Of a DNA stretch of 64,000 bases, positions 52,579-58,612 are shown in pieces. The number at the start of each line of letters is the position of its first letter. Positions within the stretch are counted from its first letter, which is position 1. A program made the position numbers and the translations under genes. The stretch covers positions 304,611 through 368,610 of the forward strand of contig CAIJYD010000078.1 in the NCBI GenBank assembly GCA_903824785.1, given 5' to 3'. Below the pieces are notes generated by a model. The model saw only the letters and a list, made by a program, of their open reading frames with translations, was not told the origin of the DNA and did no database searches. The DNA is from an uncultured Bacteroidota bacterium. GTDB taxonomy: Bacteria > Bacteroidota > Bacteroidia > Bacteroidales > VadinHA17.

Positions 52579-52656
52579 GGTGGATGTAGTTCAGTTGGTT
52601 AGAACGTCGGATTGTGGTTCCGAAGGTCGCCGGTTCGAACCCGGTCTTCCACCCCA
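52579..52656 (+). tRNA. tRNA-His (anticodon GTG)
   Basis: G(-1)-GTGGATG TA GTTC AGTTGGTTA GAAC G TCGGA TTGTGGT TCCGA AGGTC GCCGG TTCGAAC CCGGT CTTCCAC C CCA; G-1:C73 histidine identity pair. Confidence 0.95.
52642..52654 (+). repeat. attL core direct repeat (tRNA-His 3' end)
   Basis: CGGTCTTCCACCC. Confidence 0.85.
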
Positions 52657-52671
52657 CTTACAAAAACAAGC

Positions 52672-52716
52672 GAAGGCAATTATCTGAATATATGATAGTT
52701 GCCTTCTGTGTTTTTC
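52672..52716 (+). terminator. Element-borne terminator just downstream of tRNA-His
   Basis: GAAGGCAATTATC-TGAATATAT-GATAGTTGCCTTC (13-bp stem with one G-T wobble) followed by TGTGTTTTT. Confidence 0.75.
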
Positions 52717-52746
52717 TAACCACAACTATTTTCTAACTATATTCTA
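52714..52746 (+). repeat. Candidate integrase arm-type sites, left end
   Basis: TTCTAAC at 52714 and 52731; TTCTAACTATATTCTA (52731-52746) identical to the right-end copy. Confidence 0.5.
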
Positions 52747-52819
52747 TCCCTACGTTGTAAAAATCAATGTTTTTAATTAAAAAGTTCATCAGTCAATTTA
52801 CACAATTTTCCTTTCACCA

Positions 52820-54076
52820 TTACTCTTTGAGAACCAGATTTTTAAGTGTCATATTGTATTGATTTTCAACGTTGCTACAAAACAAGTAATCTATCTTGCG
52901 TGTGACATACTCTTTAAGGTCGTAGTTATTCATATACATCTGAATTACTTCAACTTGCGCAGTCGTTGTACAAGTAGGATTCCTGTGTATATCTTTCAAC
53001 AAAAATGAAATTGTGTTGCGTGCATTGGTTCTATCTCTAACAGATATGAAATCTGAGAATTCGAGCAATTCTGTTTTTACTGGTAGCTCATCCCATTTTA
53101 TATACGATATTTCCTTACCCTTCTTTATCGCAACCTCTTTTTTATGGTTTAAATAATCTTTCTTTCGCACACGGTAGAACTTTAACCACGGCTTAACCTC
53201 ATTGGTAAATAGCGAAGCTAAAAAGACAGCATCTGGAAGTTTTTCCATACTTGCAAAGTCGAAGTTATATTTTTTTAATCTGGTAAAGGTTAGCTGAATC
53301 TCAAAACGTCCAATATTTTCAGTAGTTATGCCATTGTTACTCCAATAATCAGTTATATAAGTCTTTTTTGTTTTTTCAATTTCTTCTGATTTGTTGTACA
53401 CCCGTGCTGAAATACCAGACTTCCCCTTTCCTATTGACCAACCCAAAAAACTAAGGTCTTTCTTTCTAAATGCTATTGGCAGTATTTGAATAGCATCATT
53501 ACTGGTCTGAATCGTGTAGCTTTTAACATACTTGGTAAGCAATGCTAACATTTTCAATACATCATTCCCATCCAAAGCTATATCTATTCTTGCCATCCTA
53601 TGAAACGTTAAATCAAATTTTGCTAACAAATCCCTTATTATAGTGTGATAGCTGTCTGTATATAAGAGAGCATTAGCAACTTTTACCGATACTTCATTAA
53701 AAGCATGAGTGCCGTTATTTGTAGCTGAATAAATCTCACAAACCTCAACCCCGTTAAAATAAACTCTGTGCAGGTTTCTAAAATTCGGATTTCTGTGTAC
53801 GCTAATCTTCTCGACTATAATATCAGGATTGTTATTATTAATAAATGCTAATTCAATAGGTTCATCCCATTGGCAAATAAATTCCAACCAGTCAAGACAA
53901 ATGCAGTAATAATTATTTTTTACATCAACCTGATATTGGTTTAAGGTATCGGTATTGATTGTGGAAGTAGAATGAAAATCGAAACTGGTTGAACCCGAAA
54001 ACACAGGAAATGAACGTCCATTGTTATAGGTTATCTCGTTTTCATATATTGAAGTATTTATGTTCAGATGCTTCAT
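52820..54076 (-). CDS. Replication-initiation-factor-like (Rep_trans/RstA-type) protein
   Basis: FHRMARIDIALDGND; ISARVYNKSEEI...YITDYWSNNGITTENIGRFEIQLT; ORF track start 54115, ATG 54076 (MKHLNINTSIYEN) preferred. Confidence 0.6.
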   Translation of the reverse strand: MKHLNINTSIYENEITYNNGRSFPVFSGSTSFDFHSTSTINTDTLNQYQVDVKNNYYCICLDWLEFICQWDEPIELAFINNNNPDIIVEKISVHRNPNFRNLHRVYFNGVEVCEIYSATNNGTHAFNEVSVKVANALLYTDSYHTIIRDLLAKFDLTFHRMARIDIALDGNDVLKMLALLTKYVKSYTIQTSNDAIQILPIAFRKKDLSFLGWSIGKGKSGISARVYNKSEEIEKTKKTYITDYWSNNGITTENIGRFEIQLTFTRLKKYNFDFASMEKLPDAVFLASLFTNEVKPWLKFYRVRKKDYLNHKKEVAIKKGKEISYIKWDELPVKTELLEFSDFISVRDRTNARNTISFLLKDIHRNPTCTTTAQVEVIQMYMNNYDLKEYVTRKIDYLFCSNVENQYNMTLKNLVLKE

Positions 54077-54107
54077 AAAAAAAGTGTTTAAATAAAGTAA
54101 TTTTTTG

Positions 54108-54351
54108 CCCCTCACTCAAAAAAGTGGGGGGTTCGCATTTCATAAATACGTCACAAGCAGGATTTTTTTTATAATTTTTTATGAAATCAGTTTTCCACAA
54201 ATTCTTACTGATTACGAGAAAATATCGATGTTGCACCCACATTGATAGGTGTACCCTCTTATTGTAAACAAAAGAAAGTCAGGATACGAACAGGAAATAA
54301 GTCAGTGACGGGGTCGCTGGCAGGGGGTGCTTATGGGGAATGGGGGTGGGG
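54108..54351. promoter_or_regulatory. Putative origin/regulatory region of the element (hairpins and G-quadruplex motif)
   Basis: Hairpin CCCCTCAC-N8-GTGGGGGG (54108-54131); hairpin CAGTGAC-GGG-GTCGCTG (54303-54319); GGGGG-N7-GGGG-N3-GGGGG-N1-GGGG (54323-54351). Confidence 0.4.
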
Positions 54352-54544
54352 TTATAGTACCTATAAAAGCCAGTTTCAGTACAAATAAATAGACTGTTAT
54401 TTTTTTGGATAGTTATTCAGGTTTACCGAAATTAGAGGAAAATTAAAAACTGTATATGATTTTGCAATTTCTGAAATCTTTGAAAATGACCAGCATTTGG
54501 CTTAATTTTTGATGTAATAAGGATAGAACCCTAAAAATAATATC

Positions 54545-54901
54545 ATGAAGAAACTTATTTGGTTTTCGCTCATTTCACTCTTTTTCATTTCATGCGAGAA
54601 AGAAGATTATCTGATTCCAGCAAAAGAAATTCCTAATTGGTTGAAAGCTGATATTCAAAAACAGGAACAAACAATCAAAGATTCACCACAACTGATGAAT
54701 TCTTATGGTGCTTGGCTACGTTATAAATGGCAAAATGATTATTATTTCGAATACCATAATGATTTAAGTTCTAATTCTCCCAAAGCAACTTCATCTGATG
54801 GTGTTACACATATTGAGGTTTGGGATGCAAACACTGATTACTATAAGGAGAAATGTTGCAAGGTTTACGTTTGGAAAGCACCTGAAGCCAGAGATTATTA
54901 A
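54545..54901 (+). CDS. Small lipoprotein carried by the element
   Basis: MKKLIWFSLISLFFISCEKEDYL lipobox; 118 aa. Confidence 0.65.
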   Translation: MKKLIWFSLISLFFISCEKEDYLIPAKEIPNWLKADIQKQEQTIKDSPQLMNSYGAWLRYKWQNDYYFEYHNDLSSNSPKATSSDGVTHIEVWDANTDYYKEKCCKVYVWKAPEARDY

Positions 54902-54928
54902 ATTATACAGAATTAGGATTAAGACACG

Positions 54929-55402
54929 TCATTTCTCTGATTTGATATATGCCATTAAATCTAAATGGTTAATGCGAATCTGACCATGTATGCGAATTGC
55001 TTTTAGAGTATGGTCATGCACCATTTTATATACAGTTGGTCTACTGCATGAAAGCATTTCACCAACCTCATTAATGGAGTAGAACTTGTAATTAAGCAAG
55101 TACTTCGAAACACTTTCCTCAACATCGTAAATCTTACGTGCATCAACAATGGTAAATTCTTTCTTTATATATGGATAAGTGTCTGATACATCAAATTCAT
55201 GATAGACTATGCCCCGATTAAGAAGAAATTGGTTCAAGTCATCAATACTATTGAATTTTAAATCTAATGGAATAAATTCATACGATGGATACAACGCAAC
55301 AATTTTAAAATGGGAAAGATATTGGTTCGCTCTCGCAAAGTGTTCGAACCGCATTCTTAATCGGTACTTAGGATGAATTTCATCAGGGAATACTACTGCC
55401 AT
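54929..55402 (-). CDS. HTH_17/excisionase-like DNA-binding protein with a novel N-terminal domain
   Basis: C-terminal FYSINEVGEMLSCSRPTVYKMVHDHTLKAIRIHGQIRINHLDLMAYIKSEK. Confidence 0.7.
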   Translation of the reverse strand: MAVVFPDEIHPKYRLRMRFEHFARANQYLSHFKIVALYPSYEFIPLDLKFNSIDDLNQFLLNRGIVYHEFDVSDTYPYIKKEFTIVDARKIYDVEESVSKYLLNYKFYSINEVGEMLSCSRPTVYKMVHDHTLKAIRIHGQIRINHLDLMAYIKSEK

Positions 55403-55414
55403 ATAATTTAGGTT

Positions 55415-56692
55415 TTACTTTTCAGTCTTACCAAAGGTCTTTGACCATAAATCCATTGCATTAACACGGGTCTGCTCTGTAATTGCAATATACTTCTTAA
55501 ATGAACGGAAATCAACATGACCAGTCATTGACATGATAACTTCGGGTCTTACTCCATTGATGAGGTTCTGTGTAATGAAAAATCTTCTGCCATGATGGCT
55601 TGACATGATTTCATGTTTTTTTAGCGGGTCTTGAATTTCTTTGTTCCCACGATAAGTTATTCTCATTATTGGTTGAGCTATTCCAACATGCTCACATAGT
55701 TCTTTGATATAATCATTATACTTTTGATTGCTGATGCTTATTGTTGAGGCATCGTAATTACACTCAGAAAGAATTTCCTGTGAGTTTTCATTCAATGGAA
55801 TTTGTAGCTTCTGTCTTGTTTTGGTGCTGTTCAAATAGATAGACTTGTTTCGAACATGGTTTTTTCTGATTTTTATAACATCGCTATATCTTAGTCCAGT
55901 AGAGCATTGCAATACGAACAACTTTCTTACACTTTCAAGCCTGTCATTTTCCACCTTTTTTAAGAGTAACCGAAATTCTTCTGGTTCAAGAGTTATCAGA
56001 GCAGGTGCAGGCTTACTTCTAATCTTATACTTTTTATAAGTCATATTAATCGGCAAACCTCTGTCTTGCTGGCTGTTTAAAAAGACTCTTAAGGTCTGAA
56101 GATTTTTTAAAATAGTGCTGTCTGCAAACAGTTTTGTTATCGCCTCATCAGAGTCTTTAGACTTTTCAACTATTTTAAGATGTGACAGGTATATTTCAAA
56201 TTTCTCAAAAAAGGTGTTGTCGATTTCGCTTAGCACAATCTTATCCTTTCTGTTTTTCTCAAACCCTGTCAGATGTGTTTTAAGGGTCTTAAAATCTTTA
56301 ATACCGTTGCGGGACATGGACTGGTCTTTTAACGTTACAAACGCATCGTAAATCTCAAAAAAATCAAGTGTAACGGGAGCGGTCTTTTCGATATAACGCT
56401 GTTTTATTGCAGATAACTGGAATCGACCCTTTTGTGATAGCTCGGCAATTATATCTGTTACTAATTCTTTTTGCGAAATCAACATTTGGTTGATTTTGTA
56501 GTAATCTTTAGACTTGCCACGAATAATCGACTGACTTTTTGCACTCCAACTGTCGGCATTGACTTTGATATTAGTTGGTATCCGAACCGTTTTTTTCTTT
56601 TCTGTTTGGTTTGACACACTTACTTCAACATAGACGGTGCAATCATTTGCTTTATTTGCCTTCGTGGCTTCAATCATTAATCTCGTATTCAT
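55415..56692 (-). CDS. Tyrosine recombinase/phage integrase family protein
   Basis: STGLRYSDVIKI (R), SSHHGRRFFITQNLINGVRPEVIMSMTGHVDFRSFKKYIAIT (HxxR...GH...Y). Confidence 0.93.
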   Translation of the reverse strand: MNTRLMIEATKANKANDCTVYVEVSVSNQTEKKKTVRIPTNIKVNADSWSAKSQSIIRGKSKDYYKINQMLISQKELVTDIIAELSQKGRFQLSAIKQRYIEKTAPVTLDFFEIYDAFVTLKDQSMSRNGIKDFKTLKTHLTGFEKNRKDKIVLSEIDNTFFEKFEIYLSHLKIVEKSKDSDEAITKLFADSTILKNLQTLRVFLNSQQDRGLPINMTYKKYKIRSKPAPALITLEPEEFRLLLKKVENDRLESVRKLFVLQCSTGLRYSDVIKIRKNHVRNKSIYLNSTKTRQKLQIPLNENSQEILSECNYDASTISISNQKYNDYIKELCEHVGIAQPIMRITYRGNKEIQDPLKKHEIMSSHHGRRFFITQNLINGVRPEVIMSMTGHVDFRSFKKYIAITEQTRVNAMDLWSKTFGKTEK

Positions 56693-56701
56693 TTCCGTAT
56701 A

Positions 56702-56719
56702 TTCTAACTATATTCTAAC
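56702..56719 (+). repeat. Candidate integrase arm-type sites, right end
   Basis: TTCTAACTATATTCTAAC: two TTCTAAC copies; inverted GTTAGAA at 56807-56813 beside the core repeat. Confidence 0.5.
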
Positions 56720-56815
56720 TTAATACATGTAAATATACGTAAAAGAATTGAAACAGTTCTTATTTAAAATTAGTATTCTGATAGTTAGCCATGTTCAAAT
56801 AGGTAGGTTAGAATA

Positions 56816-56828
56816 CGGTCTTCCACCC
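56816..56828 (+). repeat. attR core direct repeat
   Basis: CGGTCTTCCACCC, copy of tRNA-His 3' end. Confidence 0.85.
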
Positions 56829-56835
56829 TAAAAAG

Positions 56836-56866
56836 AAAAGGCTGTCACTTAGTGGCGGCCTTTTCC
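56836..56866 (+). terminator. Terminator immediately beyond attR (probably the original tRNA-His terminator)
   Basis: AAAAGGCTGTCAC-TTA-GTGGCGGCCTTTT, 13-bp stem with wobbles. Confidence 0.75.
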
Positions 56867-56975
56867 TTTTAAATTTGTTTATCATGAATGCGACTCTTTT
56901 AATTGAACCCACTATCTTACATATTGCTTCACTATTACAAAATATTGTATCTTTATGGCTCTGGAATTTCAATAA

Positions 56976-57368
56976 ATGTCAACTGAGAATAATATTAAAG
57001 CTTACAAGGAATGGATTTTGCAGTCAGATTATGACTACGAAACTGCCGAAGCTATGTTTTCTGCCACAAGGTACGTATATGCGGTTTTCATGTGTCATTT
57101 GTGTATAGAAAAGATAGTTAAATCGCAATATGTAAAACGATACAATAAAGTAGCTCCCAGGAGTCATAATCTGCTTTGGCTTGCCGAAGAAATTAAACTC
57201 GAATTTCCTGAACATCTCTATCGGTTTGTATTCCAGCTTAACGATGCTTCCTTACCAACAAGATACCCACAAGAACTTATGTCTTCAATTAAATTTTACT
57301 CAAAGGCAATTACACTTGAGATTCTGAACAAAACAAAAGAACTGCAGGAATGGATAAAGAAACAGTAA
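56976..57368 (+). CDS. HEPN domain protein
   Basis: YKEWILQSDYDYETAEAMFSATRYVYAVFMCHLCIEKIVKSQYVKRYNKVAPRSHNLLWLAEEI. Confidence 0.85.
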   Translation: MSTENNIKAYKEWILQSDYDYETAEAMFSATRYVYAVFMCHLCIEKIVKSQYVKRYNKVAPRSHNLLWLAEEIKLEFPEHLYRFVFQLNDASLPTRYPQELMSSIKFYSKAITLEILNKTKELQEWIKKQ

Positions 57369-57664
57369 CAACTATTATCACTTTTATTAAAGAAGAGCTT
57401 CATTTAAAGGGAATTAAATTGTTTGGTGTTGCTCTGTTTGGCTAACAGCTAAGTGGATCATCAAAGACTGATAGTGATATCGATTTAATTATTATTTCCG
57501 AGAATTTTAAAAATAAAAATATCTTTGAACGTTCCGATCTTACGATGGATACGGAGATAAAAGCATTAAAAAAATTCCAGGTACCAATGGATATTCTTAA
57601 AATGACTACAGAAGAATATAACAACAGTTTACTTAATAAAAGATTCTATGCTCAGTTGATATAA
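57350..57664 (+). pseudogene. MNT-type nucleotidyltransferase interrupted by an in-frame TAA
   Basis: MDKETVTTIITFIKEELHLKGIKLFGVALFG*QLSGSSKTDSDIDLIIISENFKNKNIFERSDLTMDTEIKALKKFQVPMDILKMTTEEYNNSLLNKRFYAQLI*; stop at 57443-57445. Confidence 0.82.
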
Positions 57665-57736
57665 TTGAGATAAACCCTAACCCTGAAAACGGAGAGTCGT
57701 CTATTAAACGATGAAAATTCAGAGTAACAAAATCAA

Positions 57737-57964
57737 ATGGAACAACAACTTCACACAATGCTGCCCGGGTTAATCACCACAATAATTATCCTTGCAGCCT
57801 GGGAATATGTCTGGAAACTGATTGCTTTATGGAAAGCAGGGCGAAATAACCATCTGGCATGGTTTATTTGTATAGCGGTTATTAACACTATTGGAATTTT
57901 GCCAATCATTTATATTCTGTTGCAGAGGAAAAACAAAAACACCCCCTCAGAAAAACCGGTTTGA
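57737..57964 (+). CDS. DUF5652-type small membrane protein
   Basis: IIILAAWEYVWKLIALWKAGRNNHLAWFICIAVINTIGILPIIYILLQRK. Confidence 0.7.
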   Translation: MEQQLHTMLPGLITTIIILAAWEYVWKLIALWKAGRNNHLAWFICIAVINTIGILPIIYILLQRKNKNTPSEKPV

Positions 57965-58162
57965 GCTACCAGGAGTTTTTACGACCGCACTCTTCTTCGC
58001 TAAAGCTGTATGAAAGCGCATAGGGGAGGCAAAAAACGAAGCCCGAAAAGCAATTTTTTATTCATGATTAGTGATAGTCATAAAATAAAAAATCATTTCA
58101 AAAAAGTTTAATTATACCTGAATATTCTGGTAATTGACTATTTTTGCATTTCAAACTTTCGT

Positions 58163-58450
58163 ATGAAACAGAAGAAACCAGACATAGAAATTACTGAGCT
58201 GTTCATGGCAAAAGCCGATTGGAACAGAACATTTATTGGTACAATCACACGTTTTACCAATGAAGATGGAAGTAAATTTGTAACAGGTGAGGTATTTGTG
58301 GAAGATGGCGACATCTGGTCAATGGCAGATAACAATATGGAGCTTGCCAGAAACCTTGACGGCATCTGTCAGCTCAAACTGGATTATGGTATTCATACCG
58401 ATACCGGCAGAACTGAAGATATATATGGTGATCTGTTTTTTCTCAATTAA
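58163..58450 (+). CDS. Hypothetical protein
   Basis: 95-aa ORF with plausible composition; no recognised family. Confidence 0.5.
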   Translation: MKQKKPDIEITELFMAKADWNRTFIGTITRFTNEDGSKFVTGEVFVEDGDIWSMADNNMELARNLDGICQLKLDYGIHTDTGRTEDIYGDLFFLN

Positions 58451-58612
58451 AGATTCAAACACCAACAACCGGAAACCGAACCTCCAGAAAGGCTGAACGC
58501 GATTATTTCAATGCCTTCACAGTCATTATAACACCAACATAAAACTACTTTACTATCTGCGATTCTCCCGGATAGTACATTATCAAATATGTAATTTCAA
58601 GCCTGCAGAACT

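Follow-up and report, generated by a model that had tools for sequence, protein, structure and literature searches.

A minimal tRNA-His-integrated element with a predicted rolling-circle initiator in an uncultured Bacteroidales bacterium

Integration site and gene content

We analyzed a 64,000-nucleotide stretch (the window) from the genome of an uncultured Bacteroidales bacterium (VadinHA17 lineage; GCA_903824785.1, contig CAIJYD010000078.1, positions 304,611 to 368,610 of the forward strand) and describe a small element integrated at its tRNA-His gene. The target, tRNA-His(gtg) (52580-52656, + strand), was identified with ARAGORN and Rfam and is kept intact. The element (52655-56828; 4,174 bp) contains four genes, rep, a lipoprotein gene, an HTH_17 (helix-turn-helix) gene and a tyrosine integrase gene, and has a G+C content of 33.8% versus ~39% in the flanks. 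The sequence CGGTCTTCCACCC, the 3′ end of tRNA-His, occurs exactly twice in the window, as the attL core (52642-52654, + strand) and the attR core (56816-56828, + strand). The repeat is exactly 13 bp long, both copies are identical, and the number of copies expected by chance is 0.01 with up to one mismatch allowed. An earlier note, made from the sequence alone, had named this 13-bp repeat as the boundary of the segment and had placed the same four genes within it. Both claims hold, coordinates included, and Pfam agrees for the HTH_17 protein, the integrase and Rep (the last below the cut-off). We also confirm that capsid, Zot-like and portal genes are missing: Pfam and PHROGs, run on the four element proteins, gave no capsid or Zot-type match, nor is there a gene for a portal protein or a canonical relaxase. 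The element has its own integration module and att repeats and no mating pore, as is expected of an integrative and mobilizable element (IME).

The left end carries the element's own hairpin and T-run (52672-52716, + strand), predicted from the left-end alignment and the fold to be a replacement terminator for tRNA-His; it is kept in other tRNA-His islands. The predicted native terminator hairpin of tRNA-His is displaced beyond attR (56829-56872, + strand), and similar hairpins are found directly 3′ of tRNA-His in congeners with an empty site. A native terminator beyond attR and an element-supplied replacement at the left end are the trace expected from integration by recombination, and the anatomy of the locus thus records the integration itself. 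A left pair (52714-52737, + strand) and a right pair (56702-56719, + strand) of TTCTAAC repeats are proposed to be integrase arm sites.

Empty sites and a sister element in another species

The genus set includes 63 congener genomes, in which the gene downstream of tRNA-His is ccsBA. The distance from tRNA-His to CcsBA is 6-366 bp in 17 congeners (<100 bp in 10 of the 17) versus 5.96 kb in the window. A terminator hairpin often directly follows tRNA-His in the empty congeners.

A sister element (L033) is found at the tRNA-His of another species (G467; metagenome-assembled genome Bacteroidales bacterium UBA5621). It ends at a repeat ~4.38 kb from the tRNA start, has the genes rep, lipoprotein, HTH and int in the order of the window element, and shares its size and ends; the arrangement of the TTCTAAC repeats, two left and two right, is common to both. 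Protein identity between the two elements is 79% for the integrase (Int), 55% for the HTH protein and 55% for Rep. Codon position-1 identity is far higher than position-3 identity in Rep, HTH and Int (0.675 versus 0.457 in Rep), with synonymous sites saturated, which indicates that purifying selection acts on the three proteins across species. The two elements have different lipoproteins, one of 118 amino acids on the + strand in the window versus one of 146 amino acids on the − strand in L033. The core is shared and the lipoproteins are not, so the element has a fixed core and a slot for a single cargo gene. In a scan of genome contigs with Rep, the sister element was the only match.

Integrase and HTH_17 protein

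The tyrosine integrase (55415-56692, − strand; 425 amino acids) matches PF00589, PF13102 and PF17293, all above cut-off. Its orthologues among the congeners are in G006, G025 and G467 (79-89% identity). The AlpA/excisionase-like HTH_17 protein (54929-55402, − strand) matches HTH_17 (PF12728, E 1.3e-12) and the excisionase-family model TIGR01764 (E 1.9e-11), and we propose it as a recombination directionality factor. The HTH gene adjoins int in the same three genomes as well (51-65% identity), and is thus found with Int in all four related islands. A Rep orthologue is present in two of the four (the window and G467). The G006 island is cut by contig ends, so any Rep of its missing part would be on another contig, and a genome-wide Rep search of G006, which is 81% complete, found none. 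The HTH gene thus travels with Int. A recombination directionality factor or a regulator would account for this better than a part in replication, and the HTH protein probably serves excision.

Rep, a predicted rolling-circle initiator

The rep gene (52820-54076, − strand) is predicted to encode a Rep_trans-type rolling-circle initiator of 418 amino acids based on Pfam, PHROGs, the predicted fold and the 55% identical sister in L033. Rep matches a phage replication-initiator family, phrog_20614 (E 5.4e-10), and is ~20% identical to NicK, RepC and RstA. The structure was predicted from a nine-sequence alignment, with a predicted local distance difference test score (pLDDT) of 72. With Foldseek the model matched RepDE of Staphylococcus (4CWC, E 2.1e-6), the sole PDB match <0.001; template modeling (TM) scores are 0.34/0.48, modest values with which the match supports the fold class and not close kinship. 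A profile search matched Rep to Geobacillus RepSTK1 (4CIJ, E 0.0012), and the viral models matched by the fold include Inoviridae initiators. The modeled fold is that of a rolling-circle initiator of the RepDE/RepSTK1 type.

In RelSt3 of ICESt3, D72, D177, Y252, K254 and E280 are needed for nicking and E257 is important (PMC6499999). Rep has counterparts of these residues with their order kept (D62, D169, Y227, K229, E232, E259) and with identical Y-x-K-x-x-E spacing. Five of them (D62, D169, Y227, K229, E259) are invariant in nine distant homologues. The three acidic metal ligands and the Y-x-K motif III of Rep_trans are present, and by alignment Rep keeps the active-site residues of Rep_trans/MobT nickases. 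Pfam detects no N-terminal HTH in Rep of the kind typical of most MobT relaxases, and residues 1-53 have pLDDT <50; NicK-like MOBT members without an HTH exist (PMC6499999). The earlier note had stated that no relaxase is visible. There is indeed no canonical relaxase gene, but the claim was too strong, because Rep_trans proteins act as both replication initiators and relaxases in Tn916 and ICEBs1 (PMC5704250) and Rep has the needed residues. Rep may double as a relaxase.

Rep was matched at E<=0.001 in 5 of 396 class genomes, the window's own genome counted. PF02486 gave just three matches across the 396 genomes, and the family model is thus a poor probe here. Two relatives in other Bacteroidota (L070, L073) adjoin an HTH_17 gene and an integrase-family gene, with the caveat that the L073 integrase frame is without a detected catalytic domain and the L070 HTH_17 score is under the curated cut-off; a third (L072) adjoins an HTH_17-like gene. 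These neighborhoods show that the Rep-HTH-Int grouping is recurrent, though rare. Other relatives are in loci like those of single-stranded DNA (ssDNA) phages, with a virion structural protein (L084, L085) or with a single-stranded DNA-binding (SSB)-like protein and a P-loop ATPase (L071). We found no description of a Rep_trans protein with an integrase in Bacteroidota in the literature searched, a partial collection.

In L084 and L085 a phrog_20614 Rep is followed by a phrog_20547 virion structural protein. These loci are likely phiCjT23-like ssDNA prophages.

Candidate origin upstream of rep

The non-coding region 5′ of rep (54077-54390) is conserved in L033, with 75% identity over ~322 bp; rep itself has 62.7% nucleotide identity. 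Conservation ends where the cargo slot starts. The region contains a G/C hairpin (54108-54131) with one compensated pair change between the sisters and a 10-bp perfect inverted repeat (54137-54187), ATTTCATAAA/TTTATGAAAT, that is compensated in L033 to ATTTTATAAA/TTTATAAAAT. Of the two inverted repeats in the region, each with one compensated change, the other is CCCCTCAC/GTGGGGGG in the window and CCCCTCAT/ATGGGGGG in L033. Compensated changes in two inverted repeats, with two sequences as their basis, are suggestive and not proof. This region is likely the double-strand origin, and it may possibly also be an origin of transfer (oriT).

Lipoprotein cargo

The cargo gene (54545-54901, + strand) encodes the 118 amino acid lipoprotein, a member of a genus-restricted family (F0) that is present in 11 of 62 genus genomes. 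Among 248 genomes sampled from the class, F0 was found in none except the window's own. A structure model of the lipoprotein has a mean pLDDT of 52 and is unusable. One F0 member (G465) is next to an unrelated integrase, and several sit within runs of small lipoprotein genes. The L033 cargo belongs to another family (F4), and in G001 an F0 gene directly follows the sole other F4 gene found; given this adjacency, both elements seem to draw cargo from one local pool. The lipoprotein is probably dispensable for mobility. By analogy with rAID arrays (PMC12247911), we guess that it could be an orphan immunity or exclusion factor. The defining features of those arrays are absent from the element, which has a single cargo gene. 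The cassette boundaries at lipoprotein genes have no flank in common with the window.

Runs of short, diverse lipoprotein genes of families F0-F5 (L130, L134, L029, L030) are common to congeners and are partly within tRNA-His islands. The sequence CTAACCATAACACGGACAAT, or close variants, is found downstream of several F0 genes (L132, L140, L141, L142) and is absent from the window. A repeat 3′ of some lipoprotein homologues does not have the complementary end that an integron attC site would have, and it does not occur in the window.

Predicted life cycle and alternatives

The element is real and minimal and probably still functional, and we think it likely that it excises, replicates by rolling circle and needs a helper to pass between cells. 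The integrase, with the HTH_17 protein as excision factor, would excise the element as a circle. Rep would nick the conserved region that directly precedes rep, giving rolling-circle replication until the circle re-integrates. Because the element is without a transfer apparatus, it must depend on a helper to reach other cells. A conjugative element, with Rep as the relaxase, is the most likely helper, and a phage is the other candidate. The lipoprotein would be cargo in a swappable slot. The earlier note had also proposed that a minimal element, integrated at a tRNA, excises and uses its own Rep to replicate, and had asked whether relatives have empty tRNA-His sites and whether the Rep fold is unrelated. 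Empty or nearly empty sites exist in 17 congeners and the predicted fold is that of a rolling-circle initiator (RepDE, 4CIJ); the proposal survives on both counts, with excision and replication, like transfer, being what we infer.

Several points weigh against this view. Rep scores 26.3 bits against PF02486 (E 6.7e-6), under the curated cut-off of 29.6 bits, and is thus a divergent relative by sequence. In the window, the candidate origin folds as a single strand no better than shuffled sequences do (z -0.36), and the origin and excision-factor roles are based on position and conservation only. Rep-bearing members number just 2 among the 63 congeners. We looked in the host assembly for an attP (excised-circle) junction and for a second copy of the element and found neither.

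The alternatives for transfer differ in the route, and the likelihoods that we attach to them overlap with that of the helper-dependent element proposed here, which covers all helper-dependent routes. In one narrower form, which we put forward tentatively, the element would be a non-canonical IME: Rep would be both initiator and relaxase, the 300-bp region would serve as origin and also as oriT, and the element would be moved by a Bacteroidetes-type conjugation system resident in the same host. In Tn916 and ICEBs1, Rep_trans relaxases have both of these roles, and Firmicutes are known to have Rep_trans/MobT IMEs (PMC5704250). The host has a conjugation operon on contig C112 (L146, G000) that encodes TraG, TraM, a DUF4138/TraN-like protein, a coupling protein and DUF5712, so a possible helper is at hand. 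However, Rep is without the N-terminal HTH of most MobT relaxases, the element has no coupling-protein gene, the sister host G467 is without a TIGR03780 match, and the Bacteroidetes IMEs with an assigned relaxase in the review use MobP (PMC5704250). In the other narrower form, which we find rather unlikely, it would be a phage satellite packaged by helper-phage particles, as PICMIs are. The PICMI core consists of int, AlpA (PF05930 or PF12728) and a replication gene; the accessory genes vary, the size is 6.1 kb and capsid genes are absent (PMC10803314). The HTH here is PF12728. Rep is homologous to Bacteroidota ssDNA-phage initiators (phrog_20614), with Rep beside a virion structural protein in L084/L085, but this distant homology is no evidence of packaging. 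A Rep_trans protein stands in place of the primase, no packaging or capsid-remodeling gene is present, and neither tblastn with Rep in 50,697 phage records nor Rep/Int scans of 2.9 million viral contigs found a relative.

We give a similarly low likelihood to a rolling-circle plasmid that integrates and spreads only now and then, through transformation or vesicles, without any dedicated helper. The gene set is exactly integration and plasmid-type replication, and the closest solved structures are plasmid initiators; however, tblastn with Rep found no match in 72,556 plasmid records, and the closest relatives found are integrated. The inovirus reading was rejected, as there are no structural genes and the sole tie is the distant Rep homology. 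The earlier note had offered an integrating plasmid, an inovirus-like satellite or a phage parasite; its reading is supported in part, in its core idea and not in a choice among the three. It is improbable that the element is what decay has left of a larger tRNA-His island, stripped of its cargo and no longer mobile. A window-type Int-HTH module does bound a ~67-kb defense island in G025, and integrase loss is seen in L031 and G458. Against decay, none of the four genes is disrupted, purifying selection acts on Rep, HTH and Int, two species have the same minimal set with the origin region conserved, and no Rep was found in the tRNA-His islands of the remaining congeners with Int.

Comparison with known systems

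The closest functional parallel is PICMI of the Vibrionaceae (PMC10803314). Like PICMI, the element is very small, combines an integrase, an AlpA-like HTH (PF12728 is allowed) and a replication gene with a variable accessory slot, and has no capsid remodeling. Unlike PICMI, it has a Rep_trans initiator and not a primase, is at tRNA-His and not fis, is in a Bacteroidales host and has no helper phage known. No element protein matches the DUF3987/DUF5906 primase by which PICMI is defined, and both the primase and the fis criteria exclude it. The Rep_trans/MobT IMEs of Firmicutes (IMESag-rpsI, IME_Sga2069_rpmE; PMC5704250) share a tyrosine integrase at the 3′ end of a conserved gene and a Rep_trans protein able to nick for replication and transfer; the element differs in that its Rep has no N-terminal HTH, it has no coupling protein and it is in another phylum. 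Known Rep_trans IMEs come from Firmicutes (PMC5704250). NBU1/NBU2 and Tn5520 of Bacteroides are likewise small tRNA-integrated or minimal tyrosine-recombinase elements of Bacteroidetes, but NBU1/NBU2 use MobP relaxases and no Rep_trans initiator is listed for them (PMC5704250). The phiCjT23-like ssDNA prophages of Flavobacterium (PMC9719478) have a homologous type of rolling-circle initiator and small integrated genomes, but have capsid genes and use host XerCD at dif, whereas this element has its own integrase at a tRNA. The element works like PICMI satellites and MobT IMEs, yet falls outside the definitions of both.

The element narrows the list of parts that an integrative element of Bacteroidota needs: an integrase, a single HTH factor, a rolling-circle initiator and its origin, and a slot for one cargo gene. 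It is a compact candidate for a Rep_trans protein that serves as relaxase in a phylum other than Firmicutes, or else for the Bacteroidota equivalent of minimal phage satellites, and relaxase-driven versus phage-driven transfer is directly testable. Because its ends and recombination module also bound a ~67-kb defense island, it can be tested whether tiny replicating elements of this phylum move large islands or build them.

Other islands at tRNA-His

That island, in G025, extends ~67 kb from tRNA-His and has the window-type Int-HTH module at its right end (L046, L118, L119, L120; G025:C11 14.8-82.2 kb). It encodes SIR2-HerA, a class II prokaryotic Argonaute (pAgo) and its partner, type III restriction-modification, and LmuB-like and GmrSD-like proteins. 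Another left end comes directly after its attR, so that the two stand in tandem. A 10.1-kb island in G026 (L031, 109-10208) has both ends homologous to those of the window element and no homologue of the window integrase. G458 retains a fragment of the int start beside ccsBA. End alignments show that the element ends are conserved across tRNA-His islands.

In the window, the segment adjoining attR (56829-58612) contains a HEPN gene, p75 and p95 and is missing from empty sites. Homologues of p75 and p95 are present in islands L031, L029, L046 and L118, and the segment is a probable remnant of an older tRNA-His island. The G025 tandem, L031, the G458 fragment and this remnant make repeated insertion and decay at the tRNA-His site well supported. 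Mobilization in trans of integrase-less islands such as L031 is only a possibility.

A broader and doubtful idea sees the 4-kb Int-HTH-Rep unit as the smallest, self-replicating form within a modular family of Bacteroidales elements at tRNA-His. Larger members would swap the Rep and single-cargo part for defense islands or lipoprotein arrays, and Int-less islands with matching ends would be moved in trans by the small ones. If true, these elements would form a helper-dependent class that is based on Rep_trans and also assembles defense and surface-protein islands.

Beyond attR, the frame that follows the HEPN gene (window 57340-57600) resembles an MNT partner and has an in-frame stop near 57443, which fits decay of this segment. 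In three further loci (L011, L018, L026) a different integrase-like gene, reading outward, is found just after tRNA-His, so the site seems to serve two or more element families.

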